The translations under genes were made by a program, and so were the position numbers. The notes under the pieces are model-generated. The model was not told where the DNA came from, ran no database searches, and worked only from the letters and a program-made list of their open reading frames with translations. Positions 2,945-39,938 of a stretch of DNA of 64,000 bases are shown here, one piece after another. How positions within the stretch are numbered: position 1 is the stretch's first letter; the number at the start of each line of letters is the position of its first letter. This DNA comes from Herbidospora sakaeratensis (GTDB taxonomy: Bacteria > Actinomycetota > Actinomycetes > Streptosporangiales > Streptosporangiaceae): contig NZ_BBXC01000007.1 of the NCBI RefSeq assembly GCF_001570525.1, forward strand, positions 857,364 to 921,363. The letters are read 5' to 3'.

Positions 2945-4227
2945 TGCTGCTCGCGCACGGCGTGGGCGGCCGTCAGGACCTGCCCATCCCGTTCTCGGCC
3001 GCCCTGATCGGCGCGATCGTCTGCCTCGTGGTGTCGTTCGCCGCGCTGGGGTTCCTCTGGCGGGAGCCCCGGCTCGGCCTCGGCCTCGACGACGCCCGCC
3101 CCCTGCCCAGGTTCCTGCAGTGGCGGGCGCCCGAGTGGGTGTGGCGGGCGGTCGGGCTGGTCGCGACGGCGTACTTCCTGATCGGCTTCTTCGGGCCGGA
3201 CGACGCCGACAACCCGACGGCCGGGGTGGTCTACGTCCTGTTCTGGGTCGGGCTGGTGCCGCTGTCGCTGGTGTTCGGCGGGGTGTGGCGGCTGTTCAAC
3301 CCGCTGCGCACCGTCGTCCTGCTGGTCCGGGGCGACCGCGCGGCCCGCCCGCTGCCCGAGCGGCTCGGCTACTGGCCGGCCGCCGCCGGGTTGTTCGCCT
3401 TCGTCTGGCTGGAGCTGGTCGCCCCCGGGCGCGTGACCCTGCCGGTCATCGGCGGGTGGCTTGCCCTGTACGCCCTCGCGATGCTCGCCGGCGGGTTCGT
3501 CTACGGCGTGCGGTGGTTCGACAAGGGCGACGCCTTCGAGGTGTACAGCGACCTGGCGGGGCGGCTCTCCCCGGTCGCCCGGCGCGACGACGGCGTGCTG
3601 GTCTGGCGCAACCCCCTCGACGGCATGACCACGCTGCGCCCCGCGCCGGGCCTGGTCGTGCTGGTGATCGTGCTGCTGGGCTCGACCATGTACGACAGCG
3701 TCTCCAACGCGCCGGTCTGGGTCAGGTTCGTCCAGGAGAACAGCCTGCCCTCACCCGTGCTGGGCACGGCCGGCCTGGTGTTCGTGATCCTGGTCGTCCT
3801 GGCCGCCTACCTGCTGGCCACCCGGCTGGCCGGCCGGCGCGGCATGGCGGAACAGGGCCGGACGGCGGGCGAGATCGCCCACTCGATCGTGCCGATCGCC
3901 ATCGGCTACGTGCTGGCCCACTACTTCACCCTGTTCCTGTACGAGGGCCAGCGCACCCTCGCCCTGCTCTCCGACCCCCTGATGACCGGCGCGAACTGGC
4001 TCGGCACGGCCGGATGGACGATCCAGTCGGCGTTCCTGACCCCCGCCGCCGTGGCCATGCTCCAGGTGACCCTGATCGTCATCGGCCACGTCCTGGGCAC
4101 GGCCCTGGCCCACGACCGGGCCCTGGTGCTGTTCCCGAGGCGCACGGCCGTGGCGGGCCAGGTGCCCCTGCTGGTGCTGATGGTCGTCTACACCGTCACG
4201 GGGCTGATGTTGCTGTTCGCCGCGTAG
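2944..4227 (+). CDS. Polytopic membrane protein, copper operon associated
   Basis: A 427-residue very hydrophobic protein. Its ATG shares one base with the preceding TGA (TGATG), so it is translationally coupled to the cupredoxin-like lipoprotein. I count about nine or ten likely membrane segments, beginning near residue 17 (ALIGAIVCLVVSFAALGFLW) and ending at the C-terminus (VPLLVLMVVYTVTGLMLLFA). Histidines lie at or in membrane segments (VLAHYFTLFLY and IGHVLGTALAH), which would suit metal handling. Similar uncharacterised proteins are known next to cupredoxin-like genes in actinobacteria; I cannot assign a Pfam family with confidence. Function is unknown, probably transport or assembly of copper in the membrane. 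Confidence 0.6.
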   Translation: MLLAHGVGGRQDLPIPFSAALIGAIVCLVVSFAALGFLWREPRLGLGLDDARPLPRFLQWRAPEWVWRAVGLVATAYFLIGFFGPDDADNPTAGVVYVLFWVGLVPLSLVFGGVWRLFNPLRTVVLLVRGDRAARPLPERLGYWPAAAGLFAFVWLELVAPGRVTLPVIGGWLALYALAMLAGGFVYGVRWFDKGDAFEVYSDLAGRLSPVARRDDGVLVWRNPLDGMTTLRPAPGLVVLVIVLLGSTMYDSVSNAPVWVRFVQENSLPSPVLGTAGLVFVILVVLAAYLLATRLAGRRGMAEQGRTAGEIAHSIVPIAIGYVLAHYFTLFLYEGQRTLALLSDPLMTGANWLGTAGWTIQSAFLTPAAVAMLQVTLIVIGHVLGTALAHDRALVLFPRRTAVAGQVPLLVLMVVYTVTGLMLLFAA

Positions 4228-4231
4228 CCCG

Positions 4232-4966
4232 TCAGGAGAACTTGGTCTTCGGCCGGGGCTCCAGCTCGCCGTCGACGTAGACGTCGACCTTCTCGTTGTA
4301 GAAGGCGACCAGCCCGGCGATCTTCTGGCTCTCGGGCAGCGGCGTGCGGTAGGACCAGGCGAGGTCCTTGCCGCCGTTGACCGACCAGTATTCGGCCGAC
4401 CCCTTGTAGGGGCAGTGGGTGACGGTGTCGGTCGCCTCCAGCAGGTCGAACCGCACGTCGGTCTTGGGCAGGTAGTACCGCGCCGGCAGCCCGGTCTCGA
4501 ACAGGATGCGCCCGTTCCGGGAGTCGGCGACGGTCTGCCCGTTCACCTCGACCCGGATGTGCCGCGAGGAGGGCAGGATGTCCACCCGGGTGTACGGGTC
4601 GCGCGGGTGGACGAAGACCTCCTCGTCCTCCTCGAACCAGGCGTCCATGGCGTCCCACTCGAACCGGACGTGGTTCCGGATCTCCTCGATCGGCGAGTCG
4701 GCGTAGACGATCGCCGGAGCCTCCTTGCCGCCGGACGTCACCGTGTAGAGGGTGGCGTCGCCCCGCGAGGGCGAGTGCGGCCCCGGCCCGGCCTCCTTGA
4801 GCGCGCCGGGCACGACGTCCGTGATCGGGATGTAGTAGGTCGGATAGTAGGGCGCCTCCCAGACCATCAGCGCCGAGGTGGTGTCGGCCACCGGCTGACC
4901 GCCGAGGTAAACGCGCAGACGTTTGGCCGTCGGCTCCAGCCGGACTCGGCCTCTGGTTGTCGTCAT
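4232..4966 (-). CDS. Tandem DUF427 protein
   Basis: A 244-residue soluble protein with two DUF427 repeats. The first occupies about residues 8-115 (RVYLGGQPVADT, then APYYPTYYIP), the second about 125-240 (RVEVNGQTVADS, then LPARYYLPKTDV, HCPYKGSAEYWSV). The second repeat keeps the CPYKG motif and a WSY segment typical of the family. DUF427 proteins are small beta-rich proteins of unknown biochemical role, widespread in actinobacteria. The gene converges on the copper operon with only four bases between the two stops and is divergent from the SGNH hydrolase gene. No Shine-Dalgarno is obvious before the ATG at 4966. Confidence 0.85.
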   Translation of the reverse strand: MTTTRGRVRLEPTAKRLRVYLGGQPVADTTSALMVWEAPYYPTYYIPITDVVPGALKEAGPGPHSPSRGDATLYTVTSGGKEAPAIVYADSPIEEIRNHVRFEWDAMDAWFEEDEEVFVHPRDPYTRVDILPSSRHIRVEVNGQTVADSRNGRILFETGLPARYYLPKTDVRFDLLEATDTVTHCPYKGSAEYWSVNGGKDLAWSYRTPLPESQKIAGLVAFYNEKVDVYVDGELEPRPKTKFS

Positions 4967-5110
4967 ACCGGCGGAAACCGTGCCGGCAGGGGCGGTATTC
5001 CGGGAAATTTTCAGCGCACCGGTCGGCTGGGGCGGCCGCCGCCGCAGGCAGGCGTGCCGGACGTCGAAGGCGAGACCGGGCGCTCTTGACGGCCGGATCC
5101 GGCCGATGCG

Positions 5111-5126
5111 ATGTTAGCGCTCACAT
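5111..5126. promoter_or_regulatory. LacI-family type operator
   Basis: ATGTTAGCGCTCACAT is a 16-base near-perfect palindrome centred on AGCGCT, with one mismatched pair out of eight. It lies about 25 bases before the ATG of the secreted SGNH hydrolase. This is the form of operator bound by LacI-family sugar repressors that control polysaccharide-degradation genes in actinobacteria. The repressor itself is not in the window. Confidence 0.55.
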
Positions 5127-5151
5127 TCAGTGCTCCCGCGAGAGGCCGGTC

Positions 5152-6291
5152 ATGTCTGCTGGGAAACGATTACTCACCATGGTGCTCGGAGCCGTGACCG
5201 TGCTCGCCCTCCTGGTGGGCGTCCGGGTGACCGCCGCCCAGGCGGAGTCGAACGGCGGGGTGCGCGTCATGCCCCTGGGCGACTCCATCACCGAGGGCAC
5301 CCAGGTGCCCGGCGGTTACCGCATCGGGTTGTGGCAGCGGCTGGCCGCCGCCCGCTACACCGTCGACTTCGTCGGCACCCAGTTCAACGGGCCGGGCTCG
5401 CTCGGCGACCACGATCACCAGGGGCATCCCGGCTGGCGCATCGACCAGATCGACGCCAACGTCACCGGCTGGTTGCGCACGCACAACCCGCGCACCGTGC
5501 TGCTGCACATCGGCACCAACGACATCCTGCAGAACTACAACGTGTCCACCGCGCCCCAGCGGCTGTCCACGCTGATCGACCGCATCACCGCGACGGTCCC
5601 GAACGCCGACGTCTTCGTCGCGACCATCATCCCGCTGTCGTCGGCCGGCCAGGCGGCCGCGGCCCGCACCTTCAACGCGGCCATCCCGGACATCGTCTGG
5701 AGCAAGGTCTCCGCCGGCAAGCGGGTGCACCTGGTCGACATGTACAGCAAGCTCACCACCGGCGACCTGATCGACGGCATCCACCCGACGGCGGGCGGCT
5801 ACGACAAGATGGCCGCCGCCTGGTACGCGGCCCTCCAGTCGGTCCCCGGCACCATCGGCACTCCGGGTGTCCCCCCGAGCCCGACCCCCACCCCGTCCCC
5901 GTCGGGGACGAGCTCCATCCGCGGTGTCGCTTCGAACCGGTGCGTGGACGTCACGGGCGTCTCCCAGGCCAACGGCGCGCAGGCGCAGATCTGGGACTGC
6001 AACGGGCAGGCCAACCAGCGGTGGACCGCCACCTCGGCGGGCGAGTTGCGCGTCTACGGATCCAAGTGCCTGGACGTGAACGGCGGCTCCACCGCCGACG
6101 GCGCATCAGTGATCATCTGGGACTGCAACGGCCAGAACAACCAGAAGTGGCGCTTCAACACTGACGGCAGCATCACCGCCATCGGCGCGAACAAGTGCCT
6201 GGACGCCCCCAACTATTCGACGGCCAACGGGGTGAAACTGCAGATCTGGTCCTGCAACGGGCAGGCCAACCAGCGCTGGAACCGCACCTGA
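5152..6291 (+). CDS. Secreted SGNH/GDSL hydrolase with C-terminal ricin-type lectin domain
   Basis: A 379-residue secreted esterase-like protein. Residues 1-32 form a signal peptide (LAAQA-type end at TAAQAES). The SGNH catalytic blocks are all visible: GDSITEG with nucleophile Ser45, GTND with Asn123, and DGIHPTAGGYDKM with Asp208 and His211. A Pro/Thr/Ser linker (about residues 243-260) leads to a ricin-B/CBM13 beta-trefoil with three QxW repeats (NQRW, NQKW, NQRW) in the last 125 residues. The combination points to deacetylation or de-esterification of a plant or fungal polysaccharide, probably xylan-like; this is inferred from the family. The start at 5152 was chosen because it gives a proper signal peptide and follows the palindromic operator; upstream in-frame codons would bury it. 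Confidence 0.9.
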   Translation: MSAGKRLLTMVLGAVTVLALLVGVRVTAAQAESNGGVRVMPLGDSITEGTQVPGGYRIGLWQRLAAARYTVDFVGTQFNGPGSLGDHDHQGHPGWRIDQIDANVTGWLRTHNPRTVLLHIGTNDILQNYNVSTAPQRLSTLIDRITATVPNADVFVATIIPLSSAGQAAAARTFNAAIPDIVWSKVSAGKRVHLVDMYSKLTTGDLIDGIHPTAGGYDKMAAAWYAALQSVPGTIGTPGVPPSPTPTPSPSGTSSIRGVASNRCVDVTGVSQANGAQAQIWDCNGQANQRWTATSAGELRVYGSKCLDVNGGSTADGASVIIWDCNGQNNQKWRFNTDGSITAIGANKCLDAPNYSTANGVKLQIWSCNGQANQRWNRT

Positions 6292-6298
6292 CCCCGGC

Positions 6299-6931
6299 TC
6301 AGCGGCGGCAGCGCACCTCCGTGCGGGTGGTCGTGGCCGTCCCGTCGACGAGGCGGTGGACCTGACAGGCCCCCGGGGGCGCCTCACGGCTGGCCACCAC
6401 GACCGCGAGACCCTCCTTGGTGAGGCGGCCGAGCGGGTCGAGGTCGGCGGGCGCGTCGAGGAGCAGGATCCGGGGGTTGGCCATCAGGGCCCGGCCCACG
6501 GCGGCGGCCTGGTGTTCGGTGAGGGAAAGCGCCGCGGCGTGAGCGCGGCGCTTTTCCCGCAGGTACGGATAGAGCTCGTAGACCCGGCTCAGGTTCCACG
6601 GCCCGGACGCTCCCCAGCGCGCGCCGACCAGGAGGTTCTCCTCCACGGTGAGCGAGGTGAACAAACGATGATTCTGCGGCATCAGACACAACCCACGGGC
6701 TTTCCGCCATTCAGGGCGTTCCCGGGTGATGTCGGTGTCGTTGAAACGAATCGTCCCGTTCGCGGCGGGGTGCAGGCCGACGACGGTGCGCAGCAGCGTC
6801 GTCTTTCCCGAGCCGGGGCCGCCCACGATCGCGTGGTGTTCTCCCTGCTCAACCCGTATCGTGACGGCGCGGATCGCGCGCGCGGTGCCATATCCGGCGG
6901 ACAGTGCGGTGACTTCCAGTACGGCCTTCAT
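6299..6931 (-). CDS. Orphan LivF-like ABC ATPase with degenerate catalytic motifs
   Basis: A 210-residue ATPase most like LivF, the branched-chain amino acid ABC subunit, but shorter than the usual ~235 residues. Walker A is intact (GGPGSGKTT, about residues 37-45). The signature motif, normally LSGGE, reads LSLTEHQ. Walker B reads ILLLDAPAD, so the catalytic glutamate after the aspartate is alanine. The usual Glu-Gln-His switch region is replaced by VVASREAPPG. It can probably bind but hardly hydrolyse ATP. No permease or binding-protein gene is adjacent and no Shine-Dalgarno precedes the ATG. It could be a decaying remnant or a regulatory nucleotide-binding protein. Confidence 0.7.
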   Translation of the reverse strand: MKAVLEVTALSAGYGTARAIRAVTIRVEQGEHHAIVGGPGSGKTTLLRTVVGLHPAANGTIRFNDTDITRERPEWRKARGLCLMPQNHRLFTSLTVEENLLVGARWGASGPWNLSRVYELYPYLREKRRAHAAALSLTEHQAAAVGRALMANPRILLLDAPADLDPLGRLTKEGLAVVVASREAPPGACQVHRLVDGTATTTRTEVRCRR

Positions 6932-6989
6932 TTGCGGTCAATTGTGGAAATTGCGGCAAGCTTTCGTCTTGTACCTAACGGCACACGAC

Positions 6990-7018
6990 TTGACGCAGAG
7001 CGCACCGAGTCCCAATCT
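6990..7018 (+). promoter_or_regulatory. Candidate sigma-70-type promoter of the AraC regulator
   Basis: TTGACG at 6990-6995 and CAATCT at 7013-7018 are separated by 17 bases. The ATG of the AraC-family gene is only six bases beyond the -10 element and no Shine-Dalgarno is visible, which suggests a leaderless transcript, common in actinobacteria. Confidence 0.4.
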
Positions 7019-7024
7019 GCACAC

Positions 7025-8026
7025 ATGCTCTATATCGCTCACACTGCGGGCGTGCCCGTCGAGGAGCGTCAGGATTTCTGGCAGGATGTCGTTTCTTCGG
7101 CGTTTGTACCGCTTGAAGCTGTTTTTCCGAAAGACCGTTTTGACGGGAAACTCCGGTCCACCTCACTGGGCCCGATCGACGTGATCGACGTCGGCGCGAC
7201 GGCCCACCAGGCCCGCCGGACCCCGCGACTGGTGTCGGCCGCGCCGTCCGACACCCTGAAGCTCGGCCTGTTCGTGCGCGGTCGCGGCCGGTTGGAGCAG
7301 GGCGGCCGGCAGGCCGTCGTCGAGACCGGCGAGATGGCCGTGTACGACACCGACCGCCCCTACTGGCTCGACTTCGACGTGCCGACCCGCATGGTCGTGT
7401 TGTTGTTCCCGCGCGCCATGCTCGGGCTGCCCCCCGACCGGGTCGACGAGGTGACCGGCAGGTCGATCCCGAGCACCGGTGGCATCGGCGCCCTGGTCGC
7501 GCCGTTCCTGCTGCGCCTCGCGGGCCACCTCGACGACGTCGAGGTCCGCGACGGCGCCCGGCTGGCCGGCAACGTCGTCGACCTGGTCGCGACGATGCTG
7601 GCCGACCGGCTCGACCTGCCCCCGGCCGACCCCGACGCCGCGCGGCGGGCGATGTTGCTGCGCATCACGTCGTACATCGAAGCGCACCTGGGCGACCCCG
7701 GCCTCGACCCGGCGCGGATCGCGGCCGCCCACTACATCTCCACCCGCTACCTGCACAAACTCTTCAGCGCCGAGAGCACGACGGTGGCCGCCTGGATCCG
7801 CACCCGCCGCCTGGACCGCTGCGTCCGCGACCTGCGCGACCCGCTCCAGGCGGCCCGTCCGGTCAGCGCGATCGGCGCGCAGTGGGGCTTCCCGGACGCC
7901 TCCCACTTCAGCCGCCTGTTCAAGGCCGCCTACGGCCTCTCACCCCGCGACTACCGCAGCGCGGTGGGCGAGGACGGAGTCGCGGATCTCACCCGCCCTG
8001 ATCGCCGTGGTCGACAGCAGGGTTGA
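7025..8026 (+). CDS. AraC-family transcriptional regulator
   Basis: A 333-residue regulator. Residues ~40-180 form an AraC-binding-like sensor domain (cupin-like, with GRGRLEQGG and ETGEMAVYDTDRPYWLDF). Residues ~215-320 are an AraC/XylS DNA-binding domain with two helix-turn-helix units, the second ending in the family signature GFPDASHFSRLFKAAYGLSPRDYR. The ATG at 7025 was preferred to upstream in-frame starts because the sensor domain begins just after it. It sits directly beside the siderophore hydroxylase gene, and their 3' ends overlap by 87 bases in convergent orientation. A role in siderophore control is possible, but the family also regulates many catabolic genes. Confidence 0.85.
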   Translation: MLYIAHTAGVPVEERQDFWQDVVSSAFVPLEAVFPKDRFDGKLRSTSLGPIDVIDVGATAHQARRTPRLVSAAPSDTLKLGLFVRGRGRLEQGGRQAVVETGEMAVYDTDRPYWLDFDVPTRMVVLLFPRAMLGLPPDRVDEVTGRSIPSTGGIGALVAPFLLRLAGHLDDVEVRDGARLAGNVVDLVATMLADRLDLPPADPDAARRAMLLRITSYIEAHLGDPGLDPARIAAAHYISTRYLHKLFSAESTTVAAWIRTRRLDRCVRDLRDPLQAARPVSAIGAQWGFPDASHFSRLFKAAYGLSPRDYRSAVGEDGVADLTRPDRRGRQQG

Positions 8027-14550: not shown

Positions 14551-34520
<19,970 letters not shown>

Positions 34521-34805: not shown

Positions 34806-37800
34806 TTATGGGTTCTCGGCCCTGTTCAGCAACTCTGGGACGGTGGGGATCTCTGGCAATATGAAGCCGAGTGACCGAAATCGCTCGACCACGGCATGCA
34901 CCGGCAGATTGGTTTGGACCGCTCCGGCGAAAATGTTCCAGAGCGGCACGGGTTTCTCCTGGTCGAGCCACCAGCTCCAATTCCCGTATCGGAAGGAGCT
35001 GAGTGTTTTCGTCGCTGAGAAATCGCTGAGCTCGCGACTCATGAGAATCAGGTCAGTAGCGTCTATGGGCGTCTCTGGCAAAGCGGGCCAGTTCAACCCG
35101 AGGGCCGCCAGCCTTGTAACCGTTTTCTCGATAGTCCATTTCAGCCGTCCTGCCGCAGTGAAGACGTGCCCCAGTGGGACAAGTTGGCCGTCCAGCCACG
35201 GTTTGCCGCCGGTGAGAGACCGGCTGACCAGGATGCGGTCACCAGGCTGTACGCGGCCAACGGAGAAGTAGGGAGGCGGCACCAAATAGCCCAATTGTGT
35301 GAGTCTCTCTGCGATTTCTCCAACGGGGCGATCGAGCTTCTCAGCCACCGTCACAAGGTGACCGATGCGGACCGGTCTCAAATCGTCGCCAACCCATTGA
35401 CTTAAACGGGTTTCCTCGTTTGCATCCCCGATGCCGAGAGCTACGTCGTCGCCTTCCCTGACGTCTCCGGCGGTCAGTAGAGATTGTGGAACGTCGAAGC
35501 CGAGTTCCGTCAGCCGCCTGGCGACCTCTTCGACGCCACGGCCGAGCTTGAATGCGGCCTCCACGATGTGTCGGGAATCCACGATTGCGGTTATAGTGAG
35601 CCACTGGGGCGTTCCGTCGAAATGTAGGTCCAGAATATCGAGGTCATCTTCGCGCGCGATTGCGAGGGAAGCCGGCACCCGAAACCCTAGCCTGGCCAAG
35701 CGTGCGGCGATGTCTCCGATCGGCTTGCTGGTCTTCTTCGCCGCCATCAGCAGATGACCGATAGGAACGACGGGAATCCCCGGCAGCATGGGAGGTCTTC
35801 CATCGAAGTTCCTGCTCATCAGAACCAGATCATCCGAGCTGAGTCGGCCCCTGATTGGTAGCTCGTGCGGCACCGTGAATGAGAAGTCCCGTAGCCTCTC
35901 GGCGACAGCATCGACGTCTCGTCCAAGTTGGGCGGCGACTGCCACCACATGTCCGACTGATATAGGTTCTTGATTTTTTGGGCTATCAGATAATCGGAGC
36001 CAAGGTCCCGCGCCGTTGAGATCCCGGCTGAGAAGAATCCGATCCGAGGGTTCGGCTCGCTGGACGTCGATGCCAGCCGGTACAAGGAAACCGAATTCGG
36101 ATAGCCGATCGATGACTTGCTTGATTGGCCGCCCGAGTTGGATCGCCGCAGTGGCGATATGCCCAGCGAGCGCCGCTGGTGGTGTGTCGGGGATGAGATC
36201 TACATCCAGCGAAGTGCCGTAGCGATGCAGATCCTTACTCAGGAGAACCAGGTCGGACTCTTCGGCTGACCCAATGGTCCGCAGTTCGGATGGCACCTCG
36301 TAGCCCAGGTCGTTGAGGCGTTGGGCGATCTCTCCGATACCGTAACCAGTTTCAAGTGCTGCGCGTACGAAATGCAATCTGGGTACGGGCCCCTCGCGTG
36401 TCAGCCAGGATTCTTCCAATCTCGAATAGAGTGCATCCGGCCTTCCGCTGAGGACAATCACGTCGGTGGGGCGAGCCGCAGGAGCATCTGTCGAGCAGGG
36501 ACCGCCTTCAGCGGCACGCAAAGCCGCCAGGCGCCAGATGACCAGATCGTCGGGCAGGGGGCGGATGCCCTCATATTCGCGGCGTCGTGCCACGCTGTCG
36601 GCTACATAGTCCGGTTGCCGATAGCTGATCGCCGATGGGATGAGATCGCGATCCATGGAGAAAAACCCTAACCGGCCGAAATTGATCTCGTGTCCGTTCA
36701 GCTCGATGGACTTCCCTGTCGAAACCATTTCAGAGAAGACCAGGTCTGCGATGACGGGATGTGCGTGGATTAGTTCGCTGAGCCAATCGAAAGTCGGCCG
36801 AATGGGGGTGCTGTTACCTGCGAATTGTTTCACGGCGCGTGATAGCACTCGGACCATAACTTCTGCGTTTCGGGCAGAGTCAAGCATCGACGCGCGGTCG
36901 ATGGTGAGCTCCGGACTGTGCTCGCCACTGAGATTGACGACCATTCCGAAACTGGTTGTATCGGTTCGAAGGCCGTCCGCCAAAATGTATTCCAGGCCTT
37001 CCCGCCACCAGACCGGCCCACGGGAGTGCTTATCGGAGACCAGTTCTCCGTCCACTCGCAATTCCATCGGGTTCCACTGGATCCGGTCGTCGCCGTCGGC
37101 GGCCTCGACAGAGAACTCCGAGTAGCTCAGGATTCGGGTGAGCGTCGCAGTGCAGGACACGGATTCCGCGTCGCCGGTGGTCCGCAGGTGAAGACGGACG
37201 ACCGTGCCGGCATCTTGGCCCGGGCCGCAGTCCTGGATGTGAAAGAGCGTTCCAGGGCCTGCGATGGACACCTGGAGACGGCGGCCGGGCCGTCCATCCC
37301 GCCCCAGTCGGCAGGTCGTGACCGTGATCTCGTCGGCGAGCATAAAATAGCTCAGCACCCCGATGCCGAACTGACTGTTCGGATACAGCAGGACCGGAGG
37401 TTCGAGCTTGTCCCACTCCGCCTGCTCCTCGATGAACTCGGGTAGTTCGGCGAATCGCACACCGGCTTGCGCGAAGACGTCGCGGAGTTCTCTCACCCCC
37501 ATCCCGATGCCGTTGTCGACACAGTCGATGTAGGGGCGGCCCTGTTCGTCGATTCCCTGTGAGAAGCCGATGCGTCCCTCCCACTCGGGGAGCTTGACAC
37601 CGGTACGGCGGAGATACTCGGTTCGGGCTTTTCTGTAACGGCAGGCGTCGAGGGCGTTTTGGTAGACCTCCCGTAGAGCGAGGTCGCGTTCGGAGTACAG
37701 CCGTTCACCCATCAGCAGTTCCTGGACGCGCTCCTCGTCGAGTCGGAACCTGATACCCGCCGACGTGTATGTGGCCACGCCGTCGGACTCGGCCGCCCGG

Positions 37801-39602
37801 ACCTGATCGGCGTCCGCGCGACCGGGCAGCCCGACGAGTTCGGCGAGTGACGGGTCGTCGGTGTTGCCGATGTCTGCGAGGATCTGGTTGAGATCGGTCA
37901 CGTGCTCCCGCAGGGCGACTTCGACCGCGGGATGCGAGCAGGCGGCTCTGAGGACACGCCCCGCTCCCCGGGGCTCCCAACGGGCCTGGTCGATCGTTTG
38001 GAGCACGTCCTGGGGTGCCAATGACCGAACGATGCCGATGTGATCCACCAGGACGCCCCCCAGCCGGGTCACCTCGATGGCCATGCGATGGGCCACGACC
38101 ACGAGGTAGGCCACCAGCCGTTCCCTGATCGCCTGTTCTCCGATGCGGCCCGGCGCGATCAGATGGGTGGCCATGAGCCCGTGCGGCCGGTCTGTGCGTG
38201 CGATGAACCCGGGGTCGGCGTACAGCAGCCGGATCAGTTCACTCAGCCGGGCGGTCGTGAGAACCTCGCTGAGCAGGCCGGATTCGGGCGTGTGCCCGTC
38301 GAGGGAGACCGCGACCGCCTGCGAACCGAAGGAGGTGGCCTGCCGGGTGATCCAGCGATGGAGAAGCCACCATCCGATCTCCTTCGGCACAGCGGTGTCT
38401 CCTCTGCCGGCCGCATCCACGGCCCGACGGAGCAGTCGGGGATAACTCCGCGCGTATACCTCGTACGCCTTGCGCTGCGGATTGGGCGCGTTGACCGGGC
38501 TCAGATCCGTAGGGCTGACGGCACTCGCGTGGGCCACGATGTGCGCCCAGTGCGTGTCGTGCACGAACGGGGCCGTCACTAGCAACGCGGCCTCCGCGGG
38601 GGACAGGCTCAGGCCGTCGAGCAGGGACCCCAGGATGAAGTTCATCCGCTCACTCATTCTTAGCGCGAACCGGGAGTCGTGCCACGGATCCTCGGCCAGC
38701 CTTCCGGCGGCCGTCCACCGGTGGGCGGCCAGACGCCTGACCACAGAGATGACGTCCTCACGCAGTTCTGCGCTTCCGGAACCCTTGTGCGTCTTCTTCC
38801 AGGCGATGTGCGTGGCGGCGGCCTCCGCCCAGTCGTCTCCGTCTCCTATGACCGACGACCGGCCCGGCAGCACGACGAAGGCATCGTGGTCGACTTCTCC
38901 CGCCAGCCGCACCTGCTGATCCGGAAGGCGGCGTTCCATGGCCAGGGCCGACAATTTGGCGGCGACCTGGCTCTTCAGGCCCGACAGGGTGGTCGGCGCG
39001 ACTCCCTCGCTGATGGCGAGTTCGACGGCACGCGCGAACAGGCTGAAGGATCCACCGCCGGACTGGCTTGGCACGTACCGCGCGACCTCGCCGGGCGAGC
39101 ACGGGAACAACCAGGCGACGTTCCGGCGGGCGGCCTTGGCGATCTTATCTTGCGCCCATGCGGTGCGGGTGAAAGCCGACTTGGTGTTCTCGTGGAAACC
39201 CTCGCGGCAGGCGTCCACCACGAAGAGAATGCCGGCTGCGCTGCTCTGGTCGATCATGGTGCCCCAGGCGGTCAGGGGCACCGCGACCTCGGCCAGGCTC
39301 AGCCACTTTAGGTCCGCGTCGCTCGGCAGCAGGTAGTCGATATTGTTGGCGTGGGCCCCATGTCCGCTGAGATAGATCAGCAGAGTGTCACCCGGATTTG
39401 CGGTGACGAGAAACCGGCTGACCTCGGTTCTGATCCGGGTCTGTCCCAGACGGCCACCCTCGCCGGCGATCTCCACCGTGTACTCGCGTGTCTCGAGGGC
39501 CACGGCGACGTTAACCAGATCGTCGGCTACAAAGGGAAGGTCCTTGATGTCGGGATCGTCATACTCGGCCACTCCTACGAGGAGTGCCCTGAACCTGCCC
39601 AC
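34806..39602 (-). CDS. Caspase - HSP90-like ATPase - tandem wHTH-like repeat protein (conflict system)
   Basis: A 1598-residue multidomain protein. Residues ~1-250 are a caspase/metacaspase-type peptidase (C14) with the dyad His81 (YLSGHGAH) and Cys132 (FVVDACREGF). Residues ~260-600 are mostly helical and resemble the inactive HD-type region of conflict proteins (AALLVTAPFVHDTHW). Residues ~640-950 form an HSP90/GHKL-type ATPase: N-box REVYQNALDACRYR (~645), DNGIGM (~700) and GIGVLSYFM (~745). From ~1070 to the end there are about eight repeats of ~66 residues with the pattern GHhhxxAxxLgrpIxxVaxRLxxLGFxVP followed by DxxLLSRdL, probably winged-HTH-like. This matches the NTP-dependent conflict proteins with caspase effectors described in multicellular bacteria; the trigger and substrate are unknown. 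Start GTG 39602, 9 bases after the upstream gene. GC content is visibly lower than in the NRPS. Confidence 0.85.
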   Translation of the reverse strand: MGRFRALLVGVAEYDDPDIKDLPFVADDLVNVAVALETREYTVEIAGEGGRLGQTRIRTEVSRFLVTANPGDTLLIYLSGHGAHANNIDYLLPSDADLKWLSLAEVAVPLTAWGTMIDQSSAAGILFVVDACREGFHENTKSAFTRTAWAQDKIAKAARRNVAWLFPCSPGEVARYVPSQSGGGSFSLFARAVELAISEGVAPTTLSGLKSQVAAKLSALAMERRLPDQQVRLAGEVDHDAFVVLPGRSSVIGDGDDWAEAAATHIAWKKTHKGSGSAELREDVISVVRRLAAHRWTAAGRLAEDPWHDSRFALRMSERMNFILGSLLDGLSLSPAEAALLVTAPFVHDTHWAHIVAHASAVSPTDLSPVNAPNPQRKAYEVYARSYPRLLRRAVDAAGRGDTAVPKEIGWWLLHRWITRQATSFGSQAVAVSLDGHTPESGLLSEVLTTARLSELIRLLYADPGFIARTDRPHGLMATHLIAPGRIGEQAIRERLVAYLVVVAHRMAIEVTRLGGVLVDHIGIVRSLAPQDVLQTIDQARWEPRGAGRVLRAACSHPAVEVALREHVTDLNQILADIGNTDDPSLAELVGLPGRADADQVRAAESDGVATYTSAGIRFRLDEERVQELLMGERLYSERDLALREVYQNALDACRYRKARTEYLRRTGVKLPEWEGRIGFSQGIDEQGRPYIDCVDNGIGMGVRELRDVFAQAGVRFAELPEFIEEQAEWDKLEPPVLLYPNSQFGIGVLSYFMLADEITVTTCRLGRDGRPGRRLQVSIAGPGTLFHIQDCGPGQDAGTVVRLHLRTTGDAESVSCTATLTRILSYSEFSVEAADGDDRIQWNPMELRVDGELVSDKHSRGPVWWREGLEYILADGLRTDTTSFGMVVNLSGEHSPELTIDRASMLDSARNAEVMVRVLSRAVKQFAGNSTPIRPTFDWLSELIHAHPVIADLVFSEMVSTGKSIELNGHEINFGRLGFFSMDRDLIPSAISYRQPDYVADSVARRREYEGIRPLPDDLVIWRLAALRAAEGGPCSTDAPAARPTDVIVLSGRPDALYSRLEESWLTREGPVPRLHFVRAALETGYGIGEIAQRLNDLGYEVPSELRTIGSAEESDLVLLSKDLHRYGTSLDVDLIPDTPPAALAGHIATAAIQLGRPIKQVIDRLSEFGFLVPAGIDVQRAEPSDRILLSRDLNGAGPWLRLSDSPKNQEPISVGHVVAVAAQLGRDVDAVAERLRDFSFTVPHELPIRGRLSSDDLVLMSRNFDGRPPMLPGIPVVPIGHLLMAAKKTSKPIGDIAARLARLGFRVPASLAIAREDDLDILDLHFDGTPQWLTITAIVDSRHIVEAAFKLGRGVEEVARRLTELGFDVPQSLLTAGDVREGDDVALGIGDANEETRLSQWVGDDLRPVRIGHLVTVAEKLDRPVGEIAERLTQLGYLVPPPYFSVGRVQPGDRILVSRSLTGGKPWLDGQLVPLGHVFTAAGRLKWTIEKTVTRLAALGLNWPALPETPIDATDLILMSRELSDFSATKTLSSFRYGNWSWWLDQEKPVPLWNIFAGAVQTNLPVHAVVERFRSLGFILPEIPTVPELLNRAENP

Positions 39603-39611
39603 GATCCCGCC

Positions 39612-39938
39612 TCAGGTGCCGAACACCAGCGTGATGGCCGCTGTGGCGCCGACTTTGGCGGTGCCGATGAGCTGGATGCCGCCTTCGCCGGTGATCTCCA
39701 CGCCGATCTGGGCCTCCTTGAGCCGCAGCCCGTCTGTCGACTTCGCCATGTCCTCGAACACGGCGCGCAGAGACTCGGCTGTTTGTCGCAGGTTCTCCCG
39801 GAGTACGTCGACGGGGATCTGACGGAGGACCGCTGAGTGATCCGCCCCTGGAAACAGACCCATCGTGGAGTCCTGGTCGTCGTCAGAGACGATGAAGGTC
39901 AGGGAGTCGATCACAGGAGGGAATGAAGGTTCTTGCAC
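39612..39938 (-). CDS. Small peptidase-co-occurring (Pepco/Trypco-like) protein
   Basis: A 108-residue protein. The core is an amphipathic helix (PVDVLRENLRQTAESLRAVF, about residues 43-62) followed by beta-rich sequence LKEAQIGVEITGEGGIQLIG and AKVGATAAITLVF. This is the layout of the small Pepco/Trypco domains found next to caspase- or trypsin-type effectors in bacterial conflict loci; I assign it by pattern, not by search. The start is GTG at 39938 with AGAGGA upstream, and only nine bases separate its stop from the caspase-HSP90 start. It is therefore the first gene of a two-gene operon and likely an adaptor or sensor for the peptidase. Confidence 0.7.
   Translation of the reverse strand: MQEPSFPPVIDSLTFIVSDDDQDSTMGLFPGADHSAVLRQIPVDVLRENLRQTAESLRAVFEDMAKSTDGLRLKEAQIGVEITGEGGIQLIGTAKVGATAAITLVFGT

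Follow-up and report, generated by a model that had tools for sequence, protein, structure and literature searches.

Caspase, HSP90-Type ATPase and Winged-Helix Repeats Joined in One Bacterial Protein with a Small Linked Partner: A Possible NLR-Like Plan

Gene Layout and Domain Composition of the Locus

We analysed a 64,000-nucleotide stretch of contig NZ_BBXC01000007.1 from Herbidospora sakaeratensis, referred to here as the window, in which a short gene for a Pepco protein is followed by a large gene for a protein combining a caspase, an iHD helical domain, an HSP90-type ATPase and an array of winged helix-turn-helix (wHTH) repeats. Only 9 nucleotides separate the Pepco stop codon from the start of the large gene. 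The features of the locus are as follows, numbered within the window.

34806..39602, minus strand: large gene (P0001), 1598 residues, GTG start; caspase, iHD, HSP90-type ATPase and wHTH array (Pfam)
39612..39938, minus strand: Pepco gene, first of the unit, 108 residues, GTG start; Pfam PF24393, 59.2 bits, cut-off 27
38889..39593, minus strand: caspase domain, residues 4-238; Peptidase_C14, 43.1 bits, and aligned dyad
39360-39362 and 39207-39209, minus strand: codons of His81 and Cys132, the aligned catalytic dyad
37791..38831, minus strand: iHD-CE helical domain, residues 258-604; PF24401, 312.1 bits
37113..37751, minus strand: HSP90-type N-terminal ATPase, residues 618-830 (approximate); HtpG/TRAP1 chains, NCBIfam and invariant residues
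36894-36899, minus strand: conserved DR, residues 902-903, downstream of the ATPase segment; column counts
34863..36413, minus strand: eight wHTH repeats, residues 1064-1580; PF24410 in 8 stretches, our own repeat model and predicted structure

The domain scores of the large protein and of Pepco are far above chance. Peptidase_C14 matched residues 5-192 over its cut-off of 21.4, and together with the intact His81 and Cys132 in the alignment this match marks the domain as a putative catalytic caspase. PADLOC matched its generic caspase model alone (E 2.5e-9), and the score against the EACC1-associated caspase subfamily of NCBIfam reached 50.3 bits, below the cut-off of 140. Both iHD-CE and an overlapping HD-CE match (122.5 bits) exceeded their cut-offs of 27, and wHTH-HSP90_Na-assoc scored 309.8 bits against a cut-off of 23. 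An HD enzyme activity of the iHD domain is unlikely, as the H is kept in 34 and the D in 17 of 80 chassis sequences, where chassis denotes the iHD-HSP90-wHTH part of the protein. The HSP90 segment matched no Pfam family in the scan of the large protein; its residues 627-816 match solved HtpG/TRAP1 chains (best E 2.1e-9), and it matches NCBIfam HtpG with E 1.1e-14 at 53.8 bits, under the cut-off of 371 for that equivalog. The protein carries E645, N649, D696, G698, G700, G746, G748, T800 and R903, nine residues that do not vary across the 80 aligned chassis sequences (80 of 80). The sequence match combined with the N-box, DNGIGM and GIG residues points to an HSP90-type GHKL ATPase, and R903, by its position, is presumably like the catalytic arginine of the HSP90 middle domain. 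Because no STAND-type P-loop NTPase family was matched in the Pfam, NCBIfam or PADLOC scans of the locus proteins, the protein might work like a nucleotide-binding leucine-rich-repeat (NLR) protein but would not be a member of that family.

The original prediction, made from the sequence alone, had proposed a caspase with His81/Cys132, an HD-like helical region, an HSP90/GHKL ATPase with its three boxes, about eight C-terminal repeats and a tightly linked Pepco-like protein, and the profile searches, the invariant residues and the predicted structure described below bear out each of these parts.

Exchange of the N-Terminal Module

We compared 80 of 374 confirmed relatives, which together with the window and three further loci gave 84 classified rows, 83 of them distinct because two rows share one record. 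L014/L018 and L016/L033 are duplicate records. The chassis is constant throughout, and the module ahead of it varies among an intact caspase, a TIR domain with a caspase lacking the catalytic cysteine, an amyloid-like motif and no recognised module. An intact caspase precedes iHD in 45 rows and a Cys-less one in 8 (7 distinct), and 31 rows have no caspase. On a tree of 80 chassis, from which L077 (broken), L094 and L095 (cut by contig ends) and L016 (a copy of L033) were left out, as they were from the repeat counts, the N-terminal class changes at least 8 times. The NLR plan consists of an exchangeable N-terminal effector or adaptor, a central NTP switch and C-terminal repeats; by analogy, a constant chassis with swapped N-terminal modules would correspond to this receptor plan.

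A second survey yielded 27 loci, of which 23 were checked (three were already covered and one is L124) and 7 of these 23 were copies of earlier loci. With L124 it contributed 17 new loci, each with about 1500 nucleotides visible upstream of the iHD match, except L124. An intact caspase with Pepco was found in 3 of them (L145, L146 and L124), TIR with a Cys-less caspase, assigned by motif, and without Pepco in 6, and neither Pepco nor a caspase in the chassis gene in 5, one of which is a fragment.

All seven distinct Cys-less caspases of the first survey are TIR fusions. TIR_2 was counted in 7 of 78 N-termini by Pfam, a count in which the rows are not named; L016/L033 matched individually, and for the other six loci near-identical copies showed TIR and caspase in one frame. 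Over both surveys TIR stands ahead of the Cys-less caspase in 13 of 13 distinct loci (L026, L029, L032, L033, L035, L036, L047, L130, L132, L134, L138, L140 and L143), which suggests a pseudoprotease retained for another purpose, possibly a structural role of the fold.

Among the caspase-less rows, a G-rich V-x-Q pattern, which we take to resemble bacterial amyloid signalling motifs, occurs in 7 of the 28 with enough sequence, in none of 43 intact or 7 degenerate rows, and in 0.3% of shuffles; the pattern was defined after inspection of the N-termini. Short N-termini resembling amyloid motifs were noted in ten loci (L015, L075, L079, L082, L085, L086, L089, L092, L096 and L097), 7 of which fit the pattern, the rest being judged by eye. 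An Azospirillum plasmid (L122) carries two caspase-chassis paralogues, at 3017-7993 on the plus and 16298-20956 on the minus strand.

Small Partners Accompany the Caspase

Judged from gene neighbourhoods, the small partner appears to go with the caspase rather than with the ATPase or the array, a point that was absent from the original prediction. Pepco lies at 34 of 39 loci with an intact caspase other than the DCC type, at 0 of 6 loci with a DCC caspase, in 0 of 8 degenerate rows and in 1 of 31 caspase-less rows. Pepco thus nearly always comes with an intact caspase; the converse is less strict. Its distance to the called start of the large gene is at most 16 nucleotides in 26 of 34 relatives (L071 included); three others have over-extended start calls, L051, L057 and L059 show 167-215 nucleotides, L071 59 nucleotides, and the match at L058 lies 4.5 kb away. 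Directly upstream of all six DCC caspases we found an EACC1-like protein instead, which is absent from every other locus of the 84-row set; the copy at L074 exceeds the Pfam cut-off (39.2 vs 23.6), and the remaining five were recognised by our own profile. In the window, EACC1 had no match between 30001 and 50000, and Pepco occupies the place directly 5' of the caspase gene. The DCC caspase requires three changes on the tree, which suggests that a caspase and its partner travel as a pair. At L127 the chassis gene has no caspase of its own; next to it, on the other strand, are EACC1 and a DCC-type caspase.

The partner might instead be the sensor or the activator. In such a reverse arrangement, known from a proposal for EACC1, Pepco would sense for, or activate, a constant caspase, and self-cleavage would free the iHD-HSP90-wHTH part as the effector. 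Kaur et al. (2020, eLife e52696) propose this for EACC1-caspase proteins with diverse C-termini, and in our set the chassis is indeed found behind EACC1-caspases. One Pepco-caspase also carries a different C-terminus; on a Streptomyces plasmid, Pepco is followed after 10 nucleotides by a 527-residue caspase without a chassis domain in Pfam and with a likely membrane segment, as judged by eye. However, the chassis also stands behind TIR with a Cys-less caspase and lacks any caspase in 31 of 84 rows, where such a cut would be impossible, and the array evolves faster than any other part, which would suit a sensor, yet effectors may vary too. We consider the reverse arrangement unlikely.

Pepco could also be a substrate of the caspase, a small pro-effector or signal protein activated by cutting. 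It is rarely found where the caspase is dead or missing (1 of 39 such rows), and it is strongly conserved, with a ratio of nonsynonymous to synonymous substitution rates (dN/dS) of 0.07; both would agree with this. On the other hand, a conserved flexible cut site was not identified in Pepco, and the translation-coupled gene order is explained no better than by a cofactor, which leaves the substrate role rather improbable, if a little less so than the reverse arrangement.

The structure of Pepco gave few leads. The predicted model is weak, with a mean predicted local distance difference test score (pLDDT) of 64.2 and a predicted template-modelling score (pTM) of 0.53, and had no match at E <= 0.001 among solved structures with Foldseek; the Pepco profile matched none of the PDB sequences. 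A kinship with Trypco1 is a lead only: the hhalign probability is 4.8, and 9 of 32 Pepcos weakly match NF041216 (best E 0.0058). In P0002 and L108-L112 Pepco shows a weak likeness in layout to the CU044_2847 family, which we assume to be Trypco1-like. We presume that the name Pepco stands for peptidase-co-occurring.

Age and Divergence of the Repeat Array

Our own repeat model, like Pfam, gives eight repeats, with start-to-start distances of 48-88 residues (mean 68), and the predicted structure of the array (548 residues) has a mean pLDDT of 86.7 and a pTM of 0.81. The repeats are old, since a DNA repeat search found no close DNA-level copies among them. Orthologous repeats are 56% identical, compared with 37% between repeats within one protein, and keep their register, and therefore the repeats are old duplications. 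The kept register also led us to reject repeat shuffling, and the diversity of repeats within one protein, once taken as a sign of pattern reading, finds no support as one.

Between close relatives the array behaves differently from the rest of the protein. In 13 of 16 close pairs, and in 10 of 10 pairs carrying a caspase-like domain, no other region has diverged as much, which lends weight to the earlier picture of a protease under ATP control whose array reads a pattern; the suggestion that the array reads nucleic acid gained no support, the array model having no match at E <= 0.001 among solved structures with Foldseek. The relatives L057 and L059 are 96% identical in the caspase and 61% identical in the array. 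In six armed pairs, some of which have a member in common, dN/dS is 0.24-0.65 in the array and 0.12-0.30 in the core. The three exceptions among the 16 pairs all belong to one effector-free clade from Dactylosporangium, within which the three pairs measured show an array no less conserved than the core. Members of this clade (L020, L021, L022, L023, L027, L028, L062 and L064) have the chassis with 8 repeats, and no module was recognised at their N-terminus.

This clade, with its slow array and without a recognised effector, might point to a role in the regulation or development of mycelial bacteria rather than in immunity. The hosts of the compared relatives are mostly actinomycetes, which we take to be mycelial, and this would fit the same explanation. 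However, the array is fast in most close pairs, and the occurrence is patchy, with 5 of 60 relatives and 27 of 393 class members positive, so that a regulatory or developmental role seems improbable to us.

Genomic Surroundings

A viral origin was not supported, as none of 83 pattern matches in viral_contigs was confirmed and one phage record covers 13% of the query; nor was a plasmid origin, since none of six matching plasmid records reached 80% coverage. No empty site was readable among seven genus members, the flanking DUF4132 stretch being near full-length only in the own genome and in one other (G004). The genome encodes at least one further caspase, found in a PF00656 search that itself missed the caspase of the window. 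A 6673-residue frame resembling nonribosomal peptide synthetases (window 14503-34524, plus strand) is convergent with the large gene and ends about 280 nucleotides short of its end.

A Possible Mechanism and Its Weight

We propose that the large protein acts in cell death or defence in the manner of an NLR, with an HSP90-type ATPase in place of the STAND NTPase, and give this reading a probability of about one half. A foreign or stress-derived ligand would be bound by the C-terminal wHTH array, and binding would release the iHD/HSP90 module, allowing ATP binding and an HSP90-like closing or dimerisation. Two caspase domains might thereby be paired and switched on, and the active caspases would cleave cell proteins or a pro-effector, leading to cell death or growth stop. 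Pepco, made first, would bind the caspase part. It is most likely a cofactor or gatekeeper holding the caspase soluble and latent, for which the soluble complex of CanB with its caspase in the canu system is the nearest experimentally tested small-partner precedent.

A wider version is more tentative and in our view falls somewhat short of even odds. It holds jointly that there is a STAND-free NLR plan built on an HSP90-type ATP clamp, that effector cassettes (a caspase with its dedicated Pepco or EACC1, TIR over a dead caspase, and amyloid-like adaptor motifs) are swapped as units, and that recognition falls to the wHTH array, which evolves fast.

Several observations weigh against the proposed NLR-like protein and its partner. 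Over the two surveys an intact caspase lacks Pepco in 8 loci (L040, L048, L076, L095 and L017; L141, L144 and L147 in the second). Conversely, L071 has Pepco without a caspase, at a decaying locus where the caspase is gone and the chassis gene is split, and L123 has Pepco with no caspase found within 12 kb; at L122 a Pepco match lies just upstream of one paralogue and none was found for the other. The independent-pairs contrast has too few pairs to be significant: starred branches contribute 4, for which a sign test gives a p of 0.25 at best. In a mirror-tree comparison of 27 loci, which additionally left out L058, L061, L070, L049, L051 and rows lacking one or other of the two genes, Pepco correlated with iHD at 0.85 and with the caspase at 0.83 (partial 0.29 and 0.27), and we discarded it as a partner test because it does not discriminate iHD from the caspase. 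As to the array, it also evolves fast in the L038/L046 pair, in which no effector was recognised, and regional dN/dS is nowhere above 1, with the array dS inflated by a lower GC content at third codon positions (GC3); positive selection on the array was therefore rejected.

If the proposed NLR-like protein is real, HSP90-family ATPases might act as immune switches themselves, beyond chaperoning immune receptors, and bacteria would possess a STAND-free analogue of NLRs. The exchange of Pepco and EACC1 would offer a direct handle on how bacterial caspases are restrained, and the divergence of the array marks the likely place of recognition.

Comparison with Known Systems

The class has already been noticed, since its parts are named Pfam families: iHD-CE, HD-CE, wHTH-HSP90_Na-assoc and Pepco all match over their cut-offs, although these are names of parts with no function attached. 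The words HSP90, Pepco and iHD are absent from the 2020 and 2021 eLife papers. We found no report of a bacterial receptor joining caspase and HSP90 in the open-access literature, a search that left most subscription journals uncovered and in part brought up mainly unrelated work; both the exchange of partners and the divergence of the array may already have been published elsewhere.

A close arrangement is the EACC1-caspase two-gene system (Kaur et al., 2020), in which EACC1 is described as having a membrane helix and a small 5' gene is followed by one that encodes a caspase at the N-terminus and a long C-terminal portion. Six chassis relatives carry EACC1 itself; at the present locus, in contrast, Pepco is the 5' gene. 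The canu caspase-nuclease defence (Science 2025, PMC12799240), which acts against phage T4, likewise has a small partner linked to a bacterial caspase; Hsp90 and Pepco are unmentioned in its text. By layout, and with the NLR side drawn from general knowledge, the protein also resembles NLR/STAND receptors in its exchangeable N-terminus, central NTP switch and C-terminal repeats, except that here the switch would be HSP90-like and the repeats are wHTH.
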